A stretch of DNA of 64,000 bases, from positions 248,001 to 312,000 of the forward strand of contig NZ_MWQK01000002.1 in assembly GCF_002210425.1 (NCBI RefSeq), given 5' to 3'. How positions within the stretch are numbered: position 1 is the first letter of the stretch; the number at the start of each line of letters is the position of its first letter. The DNA comes from Fibrobacter sp. UWB2 (GTDB taxonomy: Bacteria; Fibrobacterota; Fibrobacteria; Fibrobacterales; Fibrobacteraceae). The notes under the pieces were generated by a model. The model was not told where the DNA came from. It did no database searches and saw nothing but the letters and a program-made list of their open reading frames with translations. This document shows, piece by piece, positions 18,801-25,890 of this stretch. The translations under genes were made by a program, and so were the position numbers.

Positions 18801-20043
18801 CTTGCAGTTCTTTGCCAATAGCGTCGGTATTCGTAACGAAGATGTTGTCTGTGATAGGCTCCGTTTGAACCAGGTGCTTTTGAACGTGATTTCAAACGCT
18901 ATCAAGTACACGCCGGCGGGTGGCTCCATCTGGTTCTCTGTGGAACAGAAGGAATCGGACGAAGATGGCTATGGCGTTTACGAGTTCCGCATCAAGGACT
19001 CGGGCATTGGCATGAGCGAAGATTTCTTGCCGAAGATTTATGATGCGTTTACCCGTGTGAATTCCTCGACGGTCTCTGGCATCCAGGGAACGGGTCTTGG
19101 CATGGCGATTACAAAGAACATTGTCGACATGATGGATGGCACGATCGACATCAAGAGCAAGGTGGACGAAGGAACTGATGTTGTTCTGAATTTCAAGTTT
19201 GCTCTTGCCGGCGCTGAACATGAACTTGAACGCGTCAAGGAACTGGAAGGCAAAAGGATTCTCGTTGTCGATGACGATGTGGATTGTGCTAAGAGCATTC
19301 CGCAGATCTTTAAGGAACTCGGTGTTGAAGCTGAATGTTGCTATTCTGGCGCAGACGCCTTGGAACGTGTGAAGGCGGCGAAGGCCGAAGGTCACTTGTA
19401 CGACGCCTTCCTTGTGGACTGGCGCATGCCGAACATGGATGGCATGAAAACGACGTCGATGCTTCGCGAGTTGCTCGGGAACGATATCCTTGTGATTGTG
19501 ATGTCTGCCTATGAATGGTCGGATATCGAGGACAAGGCGACCGAAGTCGGAATCCATAACTTTGTAAGTAAACCTGTGTTCCCGTCGGATGCCCGTGATA
19601 CGCTGATGCGCAGCTTTGGGCTTTTACAGGCGGAAACTCCGGTATCGGATAAGAAGATCAGCTTTAATGGCAAAAAGGTTTTGCTTGTCGATGATAACGA
19701 ACTGAACCGCGAAATCGCCCAGGAAATTCTGGAGGACTGCGGAATACTCGTGACGACGGCTTGCGATGGCGAAAAGGCTGTGGAATACATGAAGAATGTA
19801 CAGCCGGGCGCCTGCGACTTGATTTTGATGGACGTCCAGATGCCTATCATGGATGGTTACGAGGCGACGAGGCTTATTCGTAAGCTCGACAACAAGGTGG
19901 CTGCCGAAATCCCGATTATCGCGATGACGGCAAATGCCTTTGCTGATGACCAGCAGGCGGCACTTGATGCCGGCATGAACGAGCATGTGGCAAAACCAGT
20001 GAACGTCAACAAGCTGAAAGAAGTGCTTTCGAGGTTCCTTTGA
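15847..20043 (+). CDS. Hybrid sensor histidine kinase with tandem PAS-like modules and two receiver domains
   Basis: 1398 residues. Transmembrane helices at about 10-32 and 284-305 bracket an extracytoplasmic sensor. Four PAS-like modules of about 130 residues follow (about 320-870), each opening with a segment like ECIFYVNVLDDTFD and closing with a strand such as NHVIVAVENID. The kinase core has HisKA with NMSHDIRTPMNAIIGY (His899 by position), then HATPase N, G1 and G2 boxes (NQVLLNVISNAIKYTP, IKDSGIGMS, GTGLGMAITKN). Two receiver domains follow, with probable phospho-acceptors Asp1191 (VDWRMP) and Asp1329 (LMDVQMP). There is no output domain, so signal passes to an unlinked partner. Its modules resemble those of the diguanylate cyclase at 48.3 kb. 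The gene precedes the RiPP-type operon, but nothing shows that it controls it. Confidence 0.9.
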   Translation: MNNKFFKRNLIVSLLLVAFLFIVTNVSFLYINRQAIDDSWDSLDEVAYASEAKMGFLGRSLLSALSNISTVVGMEENLLSENMVRMIRGTRIGPLVSVVRLYLPDGHIIADHAVVFDSSYIQHYQKIVSPKPYISKVGRDLVHSENIVFEQLVPVRRRGQVVAMLSAVSEIKPLYGYVATNAFKGKASLIVVDRRDGSFVVEKTGKWKNFNEFVRNIQTKKGYSVDEWAATVMKGESAHIAYEEASSDEAKLLVALPLFGGCWTQLLYVNENIAFARVDKIRKFYIGISAIELLVILLYLLRMVWNARRMAEAESNEYSEIADALSGTYECIFYVNVLDDTFDTFHSDRLMNKLHEEVHGKDFFFESISSLRHNLYEDDLEIVMHFMEKGSFLKRLEENPSASVEYRLVIDGTPQFYRMKAIKSSKDENHVIVAVENIDSEVNKAIAQRQEMDRNNRVIESLASDFDFVNYVTLGEDASSDFVVTYRASSVLLKAIPGWSSEKSFSKRMDLLLKYLVCDSDKNQFQVQTSRDRLVSTLKNESVIHVNFKIKLEGKEVCYQMKIIADKDEIGNLKGIVFGLHSVDEEIKKQMEIQSNLKQNLEIIDILSEDYSSLFYFNLVDDTSGVLAVREDIRAAFKDPFANCERLEDVFKTFVLNMAHPDDREKLIGLASREYVAGQLMHQKRLTIVFRHLYGTEYKYTRLVFAKAEPVDVPPKLIAVGFVEVDAQYRAETEHQENIERIMSLSDQYEVVFDVNIDTGLFSVSLTGGKFKDVVNEETGEGVDFFKDREKDVRKIVYKDDVDSVLSSLNRDTVIARLQHDNSFFQDYRRVTSEGLKWYRMKVTKMGDWSKSRRVLVGLFNNDVVYRKEMAQQAALEQALEMAKSASRAKTMFLNNMSHDIRTPMNAIIGYTELATIHIGNKEQVRNFLGKIELSSNHLLSLINDVLDMSRIESGKLNLNEKLEHLPEIIHTLKDIVQADINAKNLQFFANSVGIRNEDVVCDRLRLNQVLLNVISNAIKYTPAGGSIWFSVEQKESDEDGYGVYEFRIKDSGIGMSEDFLPKIYDAFTRVNSSTVSGIQGTGLGMAITKNIVDMMDGTIDIKSKVDEGTDVVLNFKFALAGAEHELERVKELEGKRILVVDDDVDCAKSIPQIFKELGVEAECCYSGADALERVKAAKAEGHLYDAFLVDWRMPNMDGMKTTSMLRELLGNDILVIVMSAYEWSDIEDKATEVGIHNFVSKPVFPSDARDTLMRSFGLLQAETPVSDKKISFNGKKVLLVDDNELNREIAQEILEDCGILVTTACDGEKAVEYMKNVQPGACDLILMDVQMPIMDGYEATRLIRKLDNKVAAEIPIIAMTANAFADDQQAALDAGMNEHVAKPVNVNKLKEVLSRFL

Positions 20044-20323
20044 TAGACGAAAGAACGCGTCTCCGGCGCTACAGACGAAAGACTAGAGGGTAATAAAGTG
20101 GATGATGTTTTTTTTTACAATTTTATAAAACATTAATTATCTGGTGGCTATCTGCTCCCTTCAAAAAAAAATAAAAACATTAGATTTTTTTTATTTTTTT
20201 TATTATTTTTTATTATTTTGCTTAAGGAAATGGAAAATGCAGAGTCGCCATAAAGGATGAATGCAAAGAGAAAGTCGATTCGCTTGATAGGATGTAGGCG
20301 CTAACTAAAAAAAGGATGCTGTT
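20044..20323 (+). other. AT-rich intergenic region between the kinase gene and the peptide gene
   Basis: 280 bases. The first 50 carry purine-rich GACGAAAGA-type repeats. Bases about 20105-20220 are extremely A/T-rich with long T and A runs and could hold an UP-element-like promoter or act as a nucleoid-protein site. I see no consensus promoter and no convincing gene. A 15-codon frame at 20257-20304 has no properly spaced ribosome binding site. Confidence 0.6.
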
Positions 20324-20410
20324 ATGAAGATGATAAGTCTAAAGAAGCTTCAGAAAGGTACAAAGGCCGCTGCAATGAGCGTTCGTTATACTAGTGTGTG
20401 CACCAAGTAA
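20324..20410 (+). CDS. Putative RiPP precursor peptide (28 residues)
   Basis: A 28-codon gene in good context: AAGGA eight bases before ATG. The peptide begins MKMISLKKLQKGTK, a basic leader-like start of the kind seen in radical-SAM peptide precursors. It continues AAAM and ends SVRYTSVCTK, with one Tyr, one Cys and several Ser/Thr in the last ten residues as plausible modification sites. No GG or other double-glycine cleavage motif is present. It is separated by 69 bases and a hairpin from a radical SAM/SPASM maturase gene and is the only plausible substrate gene in the operon. Assignment as precursor rests on position, size and composition, not on recognised homology. It is too short for default gene callers. 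Confidence 0.65.
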   Translation: MKMISLKKLQKGTKAAAMSVRYTSVCTK

Positions 20411-20426
20411 ACGTGCAAATTTTCAT

Positions 20427-20465
20427 ATAGTGGTTAAAGTCTATACTTTGGGCCTTAACCACTAT
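20427..20465 (+). terminator. Hairpin between peptide gene and maturase gene (attenuator or processing site)
   Basis: An 11-bp perfect inverted repeat (ATAGTGGTTAA/TTAACCACTAT) with a 17-base loop. No T run follows, so it is more likely a partial terminator, mRNA-stabilising or processing stem. Any of these would raise peptide mRNA over enzyme mRNA. Confidence 0.55.
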
Positions 20466-20479
20466 CATTATGGTTAGTT

Positions 20480-21778
20480 ATGAAATTTTCAAGGTACAAT
20501 ATAGAGATTGATATTGATGGAAATCGCATGCTGATGAATACGGTTTCCTTGGATTTGTTACCAATAGATTCAGATTTTCCGCTATGTCAGAATGGAATTG
20601 ATAGTGCAAAATTATCTTCAGAACAAATTTCTATGCTTCAAGAGGGCGGTTTTATTGTCGATGATGCTCTTGATGAACTGCAGGTTATAGAGGATAAATT
20701 TGACGCGGAAAAAACAGAATCGTTGATGTCCGTAAAACTGCTCTTATCAACGGAATGTAATTCAAATTGCCAATATTGTTATCAGCATTTTGCCAATTAT
20801 GAAAACTCAACAATAAGTGATGCGCAAATTCGCACATTTGTTTTGTGGGTAAATAATTACGTTGTGGAAAATAATATTCAAAAATTTTCTCTGGAACTTT
20901 TTGGTGGGGAGCCTTTACTTGCATCAAAACACTTACCCTTGTTATTTGATTTGTTGAATGAATTGAAAAGCAATAGGCGTTTCAGTGAATTCTCCGTTTC
21001 TATAATAACCAATACTTCTTTGTTTACGGATCAAATCCTTTCGTTGTTGGTAAAAAATGATGTTGAGTTTAAGTTTTCCATTGACGGCCCTAAGATTGTG
21101 CATGATAGCAGAAGACCTTTAAAGAATGGTACTAGTTCTTATGATAAAACTATAGAAGCAATTAAAAAAATTAAAGAGATGGGACGGATTGATCTTGTCA
21201 CGGCAAGATTTAATCTGGATAAAAGAAATATAGAATATTTGGAAAATGTTGCCCAAACTTTGCATGAATTGGGCGTAGAGCGCCTTTATTGCGGTAGAGT
21301 GTTTTTTCGAGGAAAAAAAACTCCTTACTCAGCGAATATTATAAATGAAAAAAGTTATTATCAAAATGGCACGTGTTTAAAATTATTCCATGTTCTTTCA
21401 AAATATGGGTATTCTGATACGCCTTGCGTTATAGAACCCTCTAGAGTTTGCCAGTTTTATCGTCTGCATAGTTACGTTGTGTCTCCAAAACTGGAGGTTG
21501 CTAAATGTGACGAACTTCTTGATATAAAGGAGCTGCAAGTGGGATATATAGATTCTAGTGGTTTTTTGAAAAAAGTTGGGAAAAACTATCAGCTTCAGAC
21601 CGGAAGGACTCCGTCAAAAGATATTGAATGTAAAAATTGTGCATACCTTCCAATATGTGGAATGGGCTGTCCAATAGAGGCTATGAATTTGACGGGAAAC
21701 CCTTTGAATCATGTTTGTATGAATAAAGAATTACTTCAGGAAAAAATAAAAGTTCTATTGATGGCTAATAATGAATAA
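20480..21778 (+). CDS. Radical SAM/SPASM peptide maturase (first of two)
   Basis: 432 residues. Residues 1-80 are a small alpha-beta N-terminal region of the sort that binds leader peptides in RiPP enzymes (assumed, not recognised). The radical SAM core starts at about 84 with CNSNCQYC (Cys93, Cys97, Cys100) and has GGEP at 141-144. The C-terminal SPASM region shows the usual spaced cysteines (CQFYRLHSYV, VAKC, CKNC, ICGMGCP, HVC), enough for two auxiliary 4Fe-4S clusters. Such enzymes make C-C, C-O or thioether crosslinks in precursor peptides. The ribosome binding site is weak. The gene follows the 28-residue peptide gene and overlaps the next gene by 8 bases. The Fibrobacter/Ruminococcus 'FibroRumin' maturase family is known to me by name and may be related; I cannot verify this here. 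Confidence 0.9.
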   Translation: MKFSRYNIEIDIDGNRMLMNTVSLDLLPIDSDFPLCQNGIDSAKLSSEQISMLQEGGFIVDDALDELQVIEDKFDAEKTESLMSVKLLLSTECNSNCQYCYQHFANYENSTISDAQIRTFVLWVNNYVVENNIQKFSLELFGGEPLLASKHLPLLFDLLNELKSNRRFSEFSVSIITNTSLFTDQILSLLVKNDVEFKFSIDGPKIVHDSRRPLKNGTSSYDKTIEAIKKIKEMGRIDLVTARFNLDKRNIEYLENVAQTLHELGVERLYCGRVFFRGKKTPYSANIINEKSYYQNGTCLKLFHVLSKYGYSDTPCVIEPSRVCQFYRLHSYVVSPKLEVAKCDELLDIKELQVGYIDSSGFLKKVGKNYQLQTGRTPSKDIECKNCAYLPICGMGCPIEAMNLTGNPLNHVCMNKELLQEKIKVLLMANNE

Positions 21779-22643
21779 AAAAAAATTTGAAGTCCCATAT
21801 AATTTTGACGAAGAGCTTATTCCGTTCTATAAGGAATATTCTAATTATGTAAATTTTCTGTTTCTTCCGCCCTACAAAGATGATCTTATCAATACTCGAA
21901 CGATTATCCAGTCGGCTGACAAGGGGGACTGCTATATGCCGCAATGTCGTTACGAGTATGAATCTCATTTAAAAGAAATCAAAGATGCTGGTTTGCGATT
22001 TGTTGTTCTTTGGCAAGTGAAAGACAACGTTATCTCGAAATCTATGCTTGATTATTATGTTAATCTTGGTGCGGCTGGCTTTATTGTTGCCAATGATGAC
22101 AATGCGAAAATAATAAAAAAATATGATGATGGTTTACTCGTTATATGTAGTATAGTGCAAAGATTATGTGCTGGAATGCTGGCAAAAGATTTTTCCAACT
22201 ATGACTACGTGGTTATGTATTATCCCTTTAATCGCTCATTAAATGCGATTAAACTTCTGAAAGAAATTAAAGAAAAAATTGTGATTATGCCTAATACGGT
22301 ATGCCACACGGATTGCCCAGCAATTCATCATTGGTTTCCATCAAAAGATCGTCCATTTAATCAAGATAGAGATTGTATGGCAATCAAGAATATTGATCGG
22401 TGTTGTTTTATTTATCCTGAGCACTTATCTCTTTTCGATGATTTTGTTGGTGGGTATAAATTGCAGGGTAGAGAATATCCTACTAGCATAATTAAAGATG
22501 TTTGTAGGGCTTTCTTTACTCGGAAGACTCCTCCGTCCCTTTTAGAAGCGAACATAGAAGAAAAACTCCAGGAGAATTTGTGTAAAATGACTCTTGAAGA
22601 ATATTACAATGTTAAAACATCTGATGTTGTTGCCTGCTTATGA
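21771..22643 (+). CDS. Peptidase-U32-like Fe-S TIM-barrel protein
   Basis: 290 residues. The alternating strand-helix pattern (FVVLWQVKD, AAGFIVANDD, YDYVVMYYP, KIVIMPNTVC) suggests a TIM barrel. PNTVCHTDCP (Cys178, Cys182) followed by His, Cys202, Cys211/212 and then GYKLQGRE (228-235) parallels the U32 family, where four cysteines bind a 4Fe-4S cluster and a K-x-x-GR motif follows. Known U32 members include collagenase-like proteins and the oxygen-independent hydroxylation factors UbiU/UbiV, RlhA and TrhP. An extra Cys54/Cys59 pair near the N-terminus is unusual. The gene overlaps both neighbours (8 and 4 bases), so it is part of the peptide-modification operon. Hydroxylation of the peptide is a hypothesis; proteolysis or a scaffold role are alternatives. 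Confidence 0.65.
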   Translation: MNKKKFEVPYNFDEELIPFYKEYSNYVNFLFLPPYKDDLINTRTIIQSADKGDCYMPQCRYEYESHLKEIKDAGLRFVVLWQVKDNVISKSMLDYYVNLGAAGFIVANDDNAKIIKKYDDGLLVICSIVQRLCAGMLAKDFSNYDYVVMYYPFNRSLNAIKLLKEIKEKIVIMPNTVCHTDCPAIHHWFPSKDRPFNQDRDCMAIKNIDRCCFIYPEHLSLFDDFVGGYKLQGREYPTSIIKDVCRAFFTRKTPPSLLEANIEEKLQENLCKMTLEEYYNVKTSDVVACL

Positions 22644-23458
22644 TTAATATACTTGTTGTTGGTGAAGAATCCTGGAAAATCCCTGAGCGTGCTGATGTCG
22701 CAATTTATTGCAGGAAGAATCCGGCAGATGTCGATTTGTACAGCGATTCGTCGCGAACGTTGTACATGTTGAATGAAAGTGATAAATGGATTGTTGTAGA
22801 TTATGTAATATGGCGCTGCCAGTTTTGTGAAAATTATTCCATAGAACATAAAATTTTAGATCTTATTAATTTTACAAAAACAAAGTGCATAAATAGTGCT
22901 AGAACAAACATTATGTTTGGACATAATATTTCGATGTTTAATGCAATGAACGAGTGTAATATGCCTGTCATTCCACGTAGGTTTATGATTGGAAGACGAA
23001 GTACTGTATTTGTTCATCCAGAGAATGATGTGGAGGTGTTTAAGATTGGAGATTATCATAGTGGATATGCAAAATCCATAATTCGAAATAAAGAAACGTA
23101 TCAAGATACCATAGATATGGCGTGTTTGTTTGATGATATACAATCTTTAGAGCCGTTTGTGAATTATGTGCAGGATGTTAGGATTTTGAAAATAGGGGCT
23201 TCATTTGGCGCTTACGAAAGAATTCCCTCAATGTGGAAAGCAAATGTGTGTCCGCATTTTTTGAAGGAACTTTTAATTAATGATATTCCGGCAGAAATCA
23301 TTGAGCATACAAATGCTTTGTCTGAATATATTAAAGCGGATGTTGTTGGCGTGGACTGGATAAAAGATGAGGATGGCCATTGGTATGCGCTTGAAGCGAA
23401 TCTTGCACCAGGCATGGAAAAAGAAGATAATTATAAAAAAATCGTGTCGTTACTATGA
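22640..23458 (+). CDS. ATP-grasp ligase of the RiPP-type operon
   Basis: 272 residues with the shape of RimK/MvdD-like ATP-grasp enzymes. An N-terminal alpha-beta domain is followed by the ATP-grasp fold with a probable ATP-binding Lys135 (VFKIGDYHSG), Arg181 (DVRILKIG) and a metal-binding end VVGVDW...ALEANLAPG (Asp239, Glu252, Asn254). ATP-grasp enzymes in RiPP pathways activate side-chain or C-terminal carboxylates to form ester, amide or added-amino-acid bonds. In this 28-residue peptide the C-terminal carboxylate is the obvious acceptor, because the last half has no Asp or Glu. It overlaps both neighbouring genes by 4 bases. Several cysteines (Cys60, Cys63, Cys83) lie in the N-terminal part without a known role. 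Confidence 0.85.
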   Translation: MINILVVGEESWKIPERADVAIYCRKNPADVDLYSDSSRTLYMLNESDKWIVVDYVIWRCQFCENYSIEHKILDLINFTKTKCINSARTNIMFGHNISMFNAMNECNMPVIPRRFMIGRRSTVFVHPENDVEVFKIGDYHSGYAKSIIRNKETYQDTIDMACLFDDIQSLEPFVNYVQDVRILKIGASFGAYERIPSMWKANVCPHFLKELLINDIPAEIIEHTNALSEYIKADVVGVDWIKDEDGHWYALEANLAPGMEKEDNYKKIVSLL

Positions 23459-24324
23459 ATTTGTATACGAAATCAATTAAAGAATTAAAAAAGACGAATA
23501 AAGTGCGTTTTTTTTTGCGGTTTGATCCTCTTGTTATTCCAAATGAATATGATGATAATTATATAGCTAATCAAATAGATGCCTGTAACTATTTTTTTTG
23601 TTGGTTTAGCAATCCGAATTGCTCTTTTATGGATATGCTGAGACAACAACATCGGCTTGCTGCTTTGGGAAAAACAGGGAATAACACGTATCTTATAAAA
23701 GGTTATTTTCGTACGCGAGAGGGGGGCTGCGATAACTGGGACTTGCGAGACAATCTAGCAGGCATGACCCGTTATGAACTTAGGAAAAAAGGTATTGACC
23801 ATGCTCATTTAGATTTGCTTCGTATTCGGCCTAATGAATATGATATTTATCGGGACGAAGATTATTTTAAAAAGATATACCAACCAACAACAGGGAAGAT
23901 TGGGGTGGATAGAGCAACAGTGTGTACGGCTAGCATTGCTGTTGACGATCGAAGGGTCTATAGTCATTCATTTATGTTTCGAAAAAATCGTTATTTCTAT
24001 ATAAAACATCCAGAAGGATCCGATTTTGAGTATTTGCAAGCTGAATTGGAGAAAAAAATGTCTATGTTATTAAGCCTAAAAAATGCTGGTAAAATAGATT
24101 TAGACAAGTTATTGTTCCATCTATCCTCCTATTATCAGTTGTTTTTAGTATGGATGCCTTTTGCCCATATCAATAATTCTATTGTGTGGGGCCAAATGAA
24201 TGCTATATTGCAGTATTTTGGATATGGGGCCTGTTCTCATGGTCGTTTAGATACCTATGCAATGTTGCTGTCTTCAAAGAATTTTCGGCACTTGTTTGAA
24301 CTCCATGTTAAGGATAATAATTAA
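23455..24324 (+). CDS. Unknown protein with degenerate Fic-like signature
   Basis: 289 residues, no recognised family. Residues 1-200 are mixed and rich in aromatic and basic residues, with Cys44, Cys49, Cys56, Cys92 and Cys157. Residues about 218-258 look like the core of a Fic (Fido) domain: a helix ending SSYYQLFLV, then MPFAHINNS (234-242), then a helix with Asn249 ending FGYG. This parallels HPFxDGNGR...N..L..GY of Fic AMP-transferases, but the catalytic His is Met234, Asp/Glu is His238 and the first Arg is Ser242. Any Fic-type chemistry must therefore be altered or lost. SHGRLDTYAM (261-270) follows. It is embedded in the operon (4-base overlap upstream, 2-base gap downstream), so it probably recognises or modifies the peptide. 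The Fic link is inferred by eye. Confidence 0.5.
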   Translation: MNLYTKSIKELKKTNKVRFFLRFDPLVIPNEYDDNYIANQIDACNYFFCWFSNPNCSFMDMLRQQHRLAALGKTGNNTYLIKGYFRTREGGCDNWDLRDNLAGMTRYELRKKGIDHAHLDLLRIRPNEYDIYRDEDYFKKIYQPTTGKIGVDRATVCTASIAVDDRRVYSHSFMFRKNRYFYIKHPEGSDFEYLQAELEKKMSMLLSLKNAGKIDLDKLLFHLSSYYQLFLVWMPFAHINNSIVWGQMNAILQYFGYGACSHGRLDTYAMLLSSKNFRHLFELHVKDNN

Positions 24325-24326
24325 AT

Positions 24327-25550
24327 ATGAATCTTATTATAATAGATTCCTGTACAAATTCATGTCCATATTGTTTTGCGGAAAAAGAAATGTCAAAACA
24401 TAGGGCAAATACAATGTCTATAGAAACTTTTGAGAAGGTTTTGCGCAAAATTCGAGCAACACCATATCCTGTTTCTGTAAATGTTCTTGGAGGAGAACCC
24501 TTGCTTCATCCTCAATTAGGGAAGATGATTGAACAATTAGAAGTGGAAAATAATGTTTCCGATTACACGATACTTTCTGGTGGAGTTGTGAAACAAAATT
24601 CATTTGATTTTTTTTCGCCAAATTCAAGGAAAATAAGTTTTCTTTTCAATGTCAATCAGAAAAAAGATTACAGGACGGAGCAATCGTATAATCTTGTGCA
24701 TGATAATATTGGTCGATTGATTGATAGGGGGTTCAAAGTCTCTTTGGGATTTAATATTTATCAGATGGATTTTAATGCGCAGGAAATTATTGAGTATTGT
24801 ACAACTTATGGAGTGTCTGCTCTTAGGCTTGCAGTTGCGAAACCGACGTATGGCATGGAAAATCCGAATCTTTTAATGCCGAAACAATATAGAGAACTTT
24901 CGCCAAAGGTGGCGGATCTGATAGAAATGGCATCTGCGTGTAATGTGAAGGTGAATGTAGATTGCATGCTGCCAAAGTGTTTTTTCAATGATGCCGATTT
25001 GTCAAGAGTAATCAAAGCACAACCTGGGGTGCTAGACGGAGTGTTCGGCAAATGTGGAATTGCCTTAGATGTTACACCTCAAGAAGATGTATTTCGTTGT
25101 TTTGCGACCGAGGAAATGCAAAAAAAGAAACTTGATGATTTTGAAAACTTCGAAGAAATGACGGATTTTTTTACGGATTTGTTTGATAATAGTTCAAAAC
25201 GCCCTGATATTTTCTCGAAATGCAAAGACTGTAAATATGCGGAAAATCAAACATGTAAAGGAGATTGCTATGCGAATTGGAAGGATCTTGATGTTAAAGA
25301 ATCTTTTTCGTCAATGATTGAAAATATCTATAACTGGATTGAAAAAAAAGATTTTGAAAAGGCGTATTCCCATTTAAAAGAAATAAAGCAAAATGTTCCT
25401 GCTGTGTCTCTTTTGTGGGCGTATTATTGGCTATCTTGTGGTGATAAAGTAAGGGCTCGTAGCTACGCAAGAAATGTAATAATCTTAACAAATGATAATG
25501 AGTTGATTGATAATGCAAAGAGCATCCTTGATTTCGTTTCTTCTAACTAA
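24327..25550 (+). CDS. Second radical SAM enzyme of the RiPP-type operon, with C-terminal helical repeats
   Basis: 407 residues. The radical SAM motif lies almost at the N-terminus, CTNSCPYC (Cys9, Cys13, Cys16), without the leader-binding extension of the first maturase. GGEP is at 55-58. Auxiliary cluster cysteines occur at KCGIALDV, FRCFAT, CKDCKY and CKGDC, consistent with a SPASM or shortened twitch domain. The last about 100 residues are helical, with a TPR-like pattern (KKDFEKAYSHLKEIKQ, GDKVRARSYARNVI), useful for protein docking. It starts 2 bases after the previous gene and ends the operon. Two radical SAM enzymes imply at least two radical steps on the substrate, or one acting on a different target. 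Confidence 0.88.
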   Translation: MNLIIIDSCTNSCPYCFAEKEMSKHRANTMSIETFEKVLRKIRATPYPVSVNVLGGEPLLHPQLGKMIEQLEVENNVSDYTILSGGVVKQNSFDFFSPNSRKISFLFNVNQKKDYRTEQSYNLVHDNIGRLIDRGFKVSLGFNIYQMDFNAQEIIEYCTTYGVSALRLAVAKPTYGMENPNLLMPKQYRELSPKVADLIEMASACNVKVNVDCMLPKCFFNDADLSRVIKAQPGVLDGVFGKCGIALDVTPQEDVFRCFATEEMQKKKLDDFENFEEMTDFFTDLFDNSSKRPDIFSKCKDCKYAENQTCKGDCYANWKDLDVKESFSSMIENIYNWIEKKDFEKAYSHLKEIKQNVPAVSLLWAYYWLSCGDKVRARSYARNVIILTNDNELIDNAKSILDFVSSN

Positions 25551-25890
25551 AAATGAAGACAAAGAGAGACTGTTAACTATAATGCAGGAGAAGTTTTGTG
25601 ACGCAGTTTATTTTACAATCTCGAAAATAATGGCTCTTTGTGCTTGTTTTAGCCCAAAATTCTTTCGTTTAATATTATATTAGCTCATTATAGGCGTGTG
25701 TAACATGGCTCGGTCTTGTCAATTCACGCAAGCGTGGTTGCCGCGACTCTCGCCTTTAGTTATATTTACCCGCAAATTGCATTTTTGCCTGGGTCCTGTG
25801 ACCAGATTCGCCAATTCCACTGGTGCTAGAGCAGTAAACTCGGACAAAAACATGTAATGAAACAAACAATCAAAAAAAGGAATGGCTACA
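25551..25890 (+). promoter_or_regulatory. Intergenic region with structured leader of rpsO
   Basis: 340 bases without a supported gene. From about 25700 the GC content rises abruptly relative to the operon upstream. Short hairpins are visible (CACGC/GCGTG near 25728; GGTC/GACC near 25793), consistent with a structured 5' leader. S15 is known to repress its own mRNA through structured leaders in several phyla. A/T-rich TAATATTATATTAG just before 25685 could hold a -10 box; no clear -35 is seen. No terminator for the upstream operon is evident. Confidence 0.4.

Follow-up and report, generated by a model that had tools for sequence, protein, structure and literature searches.

Characterised oxidases of the U32 superfamily use an Fe-S cluster to hydroxylate their substrates independently of O2 (PMC6747719, PMC11574389), and prephenate has been reviewed as an oxygen donor in this chemistry (PMC11574389). 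Their substrates are quinones or the nucleobases of rRNA and tRNA, and in none of them is the substrate a peptide (PMC11574389). UbiU and UbiV, which act in the anaerobic hydroxylation of ubiquinone in E. coli, function as a heterodimer (PMC6747719), while TrhP (YegQ) and RlhA hydroxylate RNA. Most U32 members have been argued to hold an Fe-S cluster (PMC6747719), and the cysteine motif of most of these proteins is CX6CX15CX3/4C (PMC6747719, PMC11574389). In the open-access literature we found no report that connects U32 with RiPPs, radical SAM enzymes or precursor peptides, which is weak evidence of absence.

Here we analyse a U32-like gene in a stretch of 64,000 nucleotides from Fibrobacter sp. 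UWB2 (hereafter the window). Its product shares with UbiU and UbiV the U32 superfamily, a predicted TIM barrel and cysteines expected to bind a [4Fe-4S] cluster, and the KIEGR motif of UbiU resembles its KLQGR. It departs from them in cysteine spacing (CX3CX19CX8C here, against CX6CX16CX38C in UbiU and CXnCX12CX3C in UbiV), in having no direct profile match to either protein, and in its context, which is peptide-like where theirs is quinone metabolism. TrhP and RlhA can be joined to the window protein by profiles; unlike them, it has no C-terminal U32 or DUF3656 domain, no canonical cysteine spacing and no RNA context.

The inserted cassette and its genes

DNA homology to two close relatives (blastn) stops at position 20036 of the window and restarts at 25773, and the intervening 5.7-kb cassette, which holds a 28-aa open reading frame (ORF) and all five genes of Table 1, is therefore inserted or exchanged DNA. 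In both relatives the same kinase gene (92% and 86% identity) directly adjoins rpsO, and the rpsO-pnp region of the window is also carried by relatives of the same genus. GC content drops from about 0.50 to 0.34-0.36 over 20.0-25.5 kb and then rises to 0.55, the range outside the cassette being 0.48-0.55. The cassette is a recently and horizontally acquired block of genes in a rumen-type Fibrobacter, and it probably modifies a tiny peptide. Within it, the 28-aa ORF and a stem-loop precede the genes for a first radical SAM/SPASM protein, the U32-like protein, a synapsin-type ATP-grasp protein, a 289-aa protein and a second radical SAM/SPASM protein, in that order.

Table 1. Features of the cassette, in window coordinates.
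Feature	Position	Strand	Basis
Inserted cassette, 5.7 kb	20037..25772	.	DNA missing from two close relatives
Candidate precursor peptide, 28 aa, MKMISLKKLQKGTKAAAMSVRYTSVCTK	20324..20410	+	ATG ORF with AAAGGA-type ribosome site
Stem-loop between candidate precursor and maturase	20424..20469	+	-19.5 kcal/mol; z -3.6 against dinucleotide shuffles
Radical SAM/SPASM 1, peptide-maturase type (CNSNCQYC; CKNCAYLPICGMGC)	20480..21778	+	Pfam Radical_SAM 4e-13
Divergent U32-superfamily protein (very probable), 290 aa	21771..22643	+	ATG ORF; profile homology; predicted TIM barrel
ATP-grasp ligase, synapsin-like, 272 aa	22640..23458	+	Pfam Synapsin_C 4.5e-13; phmmer synapsin II 6.6e-11
Protein without family assignment, 289 aa	23455..24324	+	Pfam, NCBIfam and PADLOC matches no better than noise
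Radical SAM/SPASM 2 (CTNSCPYC; CKDCKYAENQTCKGDC), 407 aa	24327..25550	+	Pfam Radical_SAM 8.5e-10

Of 150 Fibrobacterota genomes sampled, the other 149 lack the U32 protein, and of 167, the other 166 lack the ATP-grasp protein, the 289-aa protein and radical SAM 2; radical SAM 1 alone has weak matches in Fibrobacterota genomes, at 29% identity or less. Two scans of GTDB contigs, whose reach was close relatives, found no homologous cassette; the one with radical SAM 1 as query returned no relative. Since no homologous cassette was found, the co-occurrence of a U32 protein with peptide enzymes amounts to one locus and one weak parallel, described below.

An order of short ORF, stem-loop and maturase is common in RiPP clusters. 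The 28-aa ORF, which lies within the inserted DNA, is the only ATG ORF with such a ribosome site upstream of the maturase gene and makes a plausible, good precursor candidate; the stem-loop that follows it is a candidate attenuator or stabiliser. When the intergenic DNA was shuffled, 6% of the shuffles held an ATG ORF as long as this one together with a ribosome site, and 41% did when the ribosome site was not demanded. The candidate has no match in NCBIfam, includes the stretch ...SVRYTSVCTK, and contains a single cysteine, in contrast to the cysteine at every fifth position in CefB-type clusters.

Among the enzymes, radical SAM 1 has the clearest ties to peptide maturation. Its best NCBIfam model is the peptide maturase CefB (5e-54, residues 1-406), where it scores 184 bits and the cut-off is 600, and it aligns with many further peptide-maturase models of NCBIfam. 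None of the models shown is matched above its cut-off, and radical SAM 1 is thus no known equivalog. Radical SAM 2 has weak matches to TIGR04340 and to MoaA-type models. For the 289-aa protein, no relative turned up in any collection searched, and its single-sequence structural model (pLDDT 37) is unusable. The label of RiPP enzymes, which the sequence-only reading had given to the partners of the U32-like gene, is fair for radical SAM 1 and less certain for the others, while the peptide-tailoring setting that it had proposed gains support, a candidate precursor ORF having been found. A separate reading of the locus as a defence system was tried and rejected, since all it yielded was a weak resemblance of the radical SAM proteins to viperin. 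Elsewhere in Fibrobacter, in two further genomes (L020:5045-7145 and L021:4602-6702), a radical SAM/SPASM gene adjoins the gene for a 248-aa cysteine-rich protein, whose regularly spaced cysteines in the C-terminal half make it a likely precursor of ranthipeptide type.

Taken as a whole, the cassette is in our judgement a peptide-modification cassette with good probability. A contrary account would deny a ribosomal-peptide pathway, attribute the 28-aa ORF to chance and have the enzymes produce a small molecule or serve in defence; we hold this account distinctly unlikely. It can draw on the shuffle frequencies given above, on the missing family match of the precursor ORF and on the weak matches of both radical SAM proteins to viperin models, and is opposed by the near-full-length alignment of the N-terminus and SPASM domain of radical SAM 1 with peptide maturases, by the position of that protein's viperin matches far below its peptide-maturase matches, and by the RiPP-like order of short ORF, stem-loop and maturase.

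The start of the U32-like gene overlaps the stop of the radical SAM 1 gene by 8 nt, and at its other end it shares 4 nt (ATGA, 22640) between its own stop and the start of the ATP-grasp gene. With overlaps on both sides, translational coupling, which had been suggested for this gene and RiPP enzymes, is plausible in both directions.

Kinship of the U32-like protein with the superfamily

Searched alone, the U32-like protein has no Pfam or NCBIfam match and does not reach the gathering score of PF01136. Direct look-ups in Pfam, NCBIfam, the PDB (by sequence), plasmids, viral contigs, GTDB contigs and 150 Fibrobacterota genomes gave nothing usable, and two weak matches to it within the phylum Fibrobacterota were spurious on inspection. 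The starting point was instead a pair of further Fibrobacter genomes with a weak match to PF01136, which led to a stand-alone protein of 300 aa. A profile was built from 22 relatives, with the window protein left out; its members come from Fibrobacter, Lachnospira eligens, Treponema saccharophilum, Candidatus Thiodictyon, gut contigs and contigs of gut and rumen phages.

Against this divergent profile the window protein was recovered with HHalign (94.6%, E 6.8e-8) and was the top ORF of the window. In HMMER it scored 30.7 bits, where the best of 1000 shuffles reached 7.8 bits. Among 225 ORFs of a control set, an E value below 1e-4 was obtained only by the Thiodictyon relative (itself a profile member), the window protein and RlhA, the last a known U32 hydroxylase found at 1.3e-5; among 80 control ORFs run through HHalign, only the Thiodictyon relative, again as a profile member, and RlhA exceeded 5%. 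The U32-like identity first proposed from the letters of this DNA is thus beyond chance.

The divergent family is tied in turn to the characterised enzymes. It matches 410-aa proteins of Fibrobacterota in HHalign (99%, E 7e-18), and these intermediates match both TrhP (95.7%, E 9e-9) and PF01136. Compared directly with the 410-aa proteins alone, the window protein gives a weak HHalign result (1%), and the link passes through the 22-member family. Of the 21 members of the alignment, 8 match PF01136 at E values up to 0.1; such matches run down to 8.5e-13, and the NCBIfam TrhP model is matched at 1.3e-7. When the family profile including the window protein was run against the whole PDB, the top match was a U32 structure, Mk0906 (PDB 5d88; E 1.1e-4). 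We conclude that the window protein is, with high confidence, a divergent member of the U32 superfamily, linked to it through intermediates.

The translated ORF carries C54, C59, C178, C182, C202, C211 and C212, with KLQGRE at 230-235, just as had been read from the sequence. N175, C178, C182, H186, C202, F/Y229, K230, G233 and R234 are family-like in most or all rows of the alignment, whereas C54, C59, C211 and C212 lie outside the family pattern. The common core runs C-x3-C-x3-H, with a third cysteine about 20 residues further on, and the window protein, with a spacing of CX3CX19CX8C(C), does not contain the canonical motif of U32 oxidases, CX6CX15CX3/4C. Because the core spacing departs from this motif, we place the window protein and its relatives in another clade. 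With that clade the window protein shares the N-x2-C-x3-C-x3-H core, the third cysteine and an F/Y-K-I/L-x-G-R segment at the end of the barrel; it differs in a longer C-terminal tail and in the W-N/G-G-G-R stretch of the family's N-terminal half, several residues of which are missing.

Three ligands of a probable Fe-S cluster would be C178, C182 and C202, and the fourth may be C211/C212, C54/C59 or H186. Several phage members have only the three core cysteines, which suggests that the fourth ligand could be a different one or none at all. C211/C212 or C54/C59 could supply it, with conservation favouring neither pair. The proposal that C54 and C59 mark a second site is rejected, since neither cysteine occurs in any of the 20 aligned relatives. 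The uncertainty over the fourth ligand of this three-cysteine core is also relevant to the working of U32 clusters.

An AlphaFold2 model from an alignment of 21 sequences (pLDDT 73.8, pTM 0.75) shows a barrel of alternating strands and helices of the TIM type. A fold unlike U32 had been named as grounds for abandoning the assignment; 5d88 is among the best fold matches (Foldseek E 5e-5, TM 0.50/0.58; VIA Z 13.8 over 196 residues, rmsd 3.5, 13% identity), in a model whose input alignment contained U32 relatives and whose support is therefore not independent of the homology. TrpA-type barrels are level with 5d88 (Z 14.1 against 13.8) and many other TIM barrels score equally, so that the fold alone is no proof of U32 membership. 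The region holding C202 and C211/C212 is a weak part of the model, with pLDDT below 50 in the loop 187-201. The best match among viral models (BFVD) is a 'Peptidase' of Escherichia phage OLB35 (E 5e-10).

Proposed peptide oxidation and its alternatives

The cassette would make and modify a very short ribosomal peptide. By analogy with UbiU/UbiV, the U32-type enzyme would oxidise a side chain of that peptide independently of O2, probably hydroxylating it with oxygen from an organic donor; the tyrosine in ...SVRYTSVCTK is one possible target. This step might fall before or after those of the radical SAM and ATP-grasp enzymes. Given the oxygen-independent hydroxylation by Fe-S enzymes in the superfamily and the setting of the gene, an Fe-S oxidase that tailors the peptide, probably by hydroxylation, is the likeliest role, which we advance tentatively. 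More tentatively still, the protein may represent a new U32 branch that, in concert with both radical SAM enzymes and the ATP-grasp ligase, subjects a ribosomal peptide to oxygen-independent oxidation, probably hydroxylation. Against the peptide-oxidase reading stand the missing direct match to Pfam or NCBIfam, the cysteine spacing, the lost N-terminal residues and the 6% frequency with which chance yields a comparable precursor ORF.

The substrate need not be the peptide itself. A U32 Fe-S oxidase might act on a small molecule, such as an amino acid or shikimate-derived building block, which would afterwards be joined to the peptide by the ATP-grasp enzyme. Quinones and nucleobases, never peptides, being the substrates of characterised U32 oxidases (PMC11574389), this scheme has precedent on its side; it would also account for the synapsin-like ATP-grasp protein, whose gene is coupled directly downstream. 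The cassette, on the other hand, holds no gene for the synthesis of a building block, its other recognisable genes being peptide-modifying or of no known type, and we regard the scheme as unlikely.

We give a similarly low probability to a non-catalytic role, in which the protein would be a cluster-bearing partner or an electron-transfer subunit of a radical SAM enzyme. The UbiU/UbiV heterodimer offers a precedent (PMC6747719), the U32-like gene is translationally coupled to that of radical SAM 1, and the lost parts of the N-terminal family motif suggest a changed function; the retention of K230, G233, R234, H186 and the three cysteines suggests instead that the active centre has been kept.

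U32 proteins have historically been described as collagenase-like peptidases. A leader-removing peptidase would therefore fit the family name, and no protease or exporter is evident in the cassette by Pfam and NCBIfam, nor was a transporter recognised. The conserved cysteines, however, suit an Fe-S oxidase, in line with the argument that most U32 members bear a cluster (PMC6747719), and the protein encoded at 23455 is equally free as a protease candidate; a peptidase is, of the roles considered here, a very improbable one.

The locus thus offers a U32-superfamily gene in a plausible peptide-tailoring cassette, with peptide hydroxylation as a testable hypothesis, and the small gene set suits a single co-expression experiment. 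Were the peptide-oxidase reading true, U32 oxidase chemistry would gain a third substrate class, peptides, beside quinones and RNA, and peptide natural products would gain a route to hydroxylation free of O2.

The divergent clade outside the cassette

The 300-aa stand-alone protein (NECCWFGC...FKIEGR) is present in most Fibrobacter genomes, that of the window included, at loci such as L062 (G000:C4:59349-60317) and L056:6351-7259. Homologues in Treponema saccharophilum and Lachnospira eligens share 59-71% identity with it and are annotated as hypothetical proteins, and a more distant relative is found in Candidatus Thiodictyon. Apart from the window protein, members of the clade are mostly stand-alone or phage genes, and the window protein is the only one inside a peptide-maturase cassette.

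On plasmid pTs417 of Candidatus Thiodictyon (L125:8062-17733), the U32-like gene lies near genes for PqqD, a radical SAM protein, an amidohydrolase, YcaO and TfuA, with an IS66 element in between. These genes look like a thioamide-type peptide cluster, and the plasmid provides one independent, though weak, parallel for a U32 gene beside peptide enzymes.

Many IMG/VR viral contigs also encode divergent U32-like proteins (L094:5983-6879, L095:5815-6774, L102, L105, L107, L109, L110 and L114-L116), and one viral contig carries two copies in tandem (L093:2-874 and 894-1763). In Lachnospira eligens (L090:3980-4897), the U32-like gene directly follows that for cobyric acid synthase and other cobalamin genes, a possible functional link.
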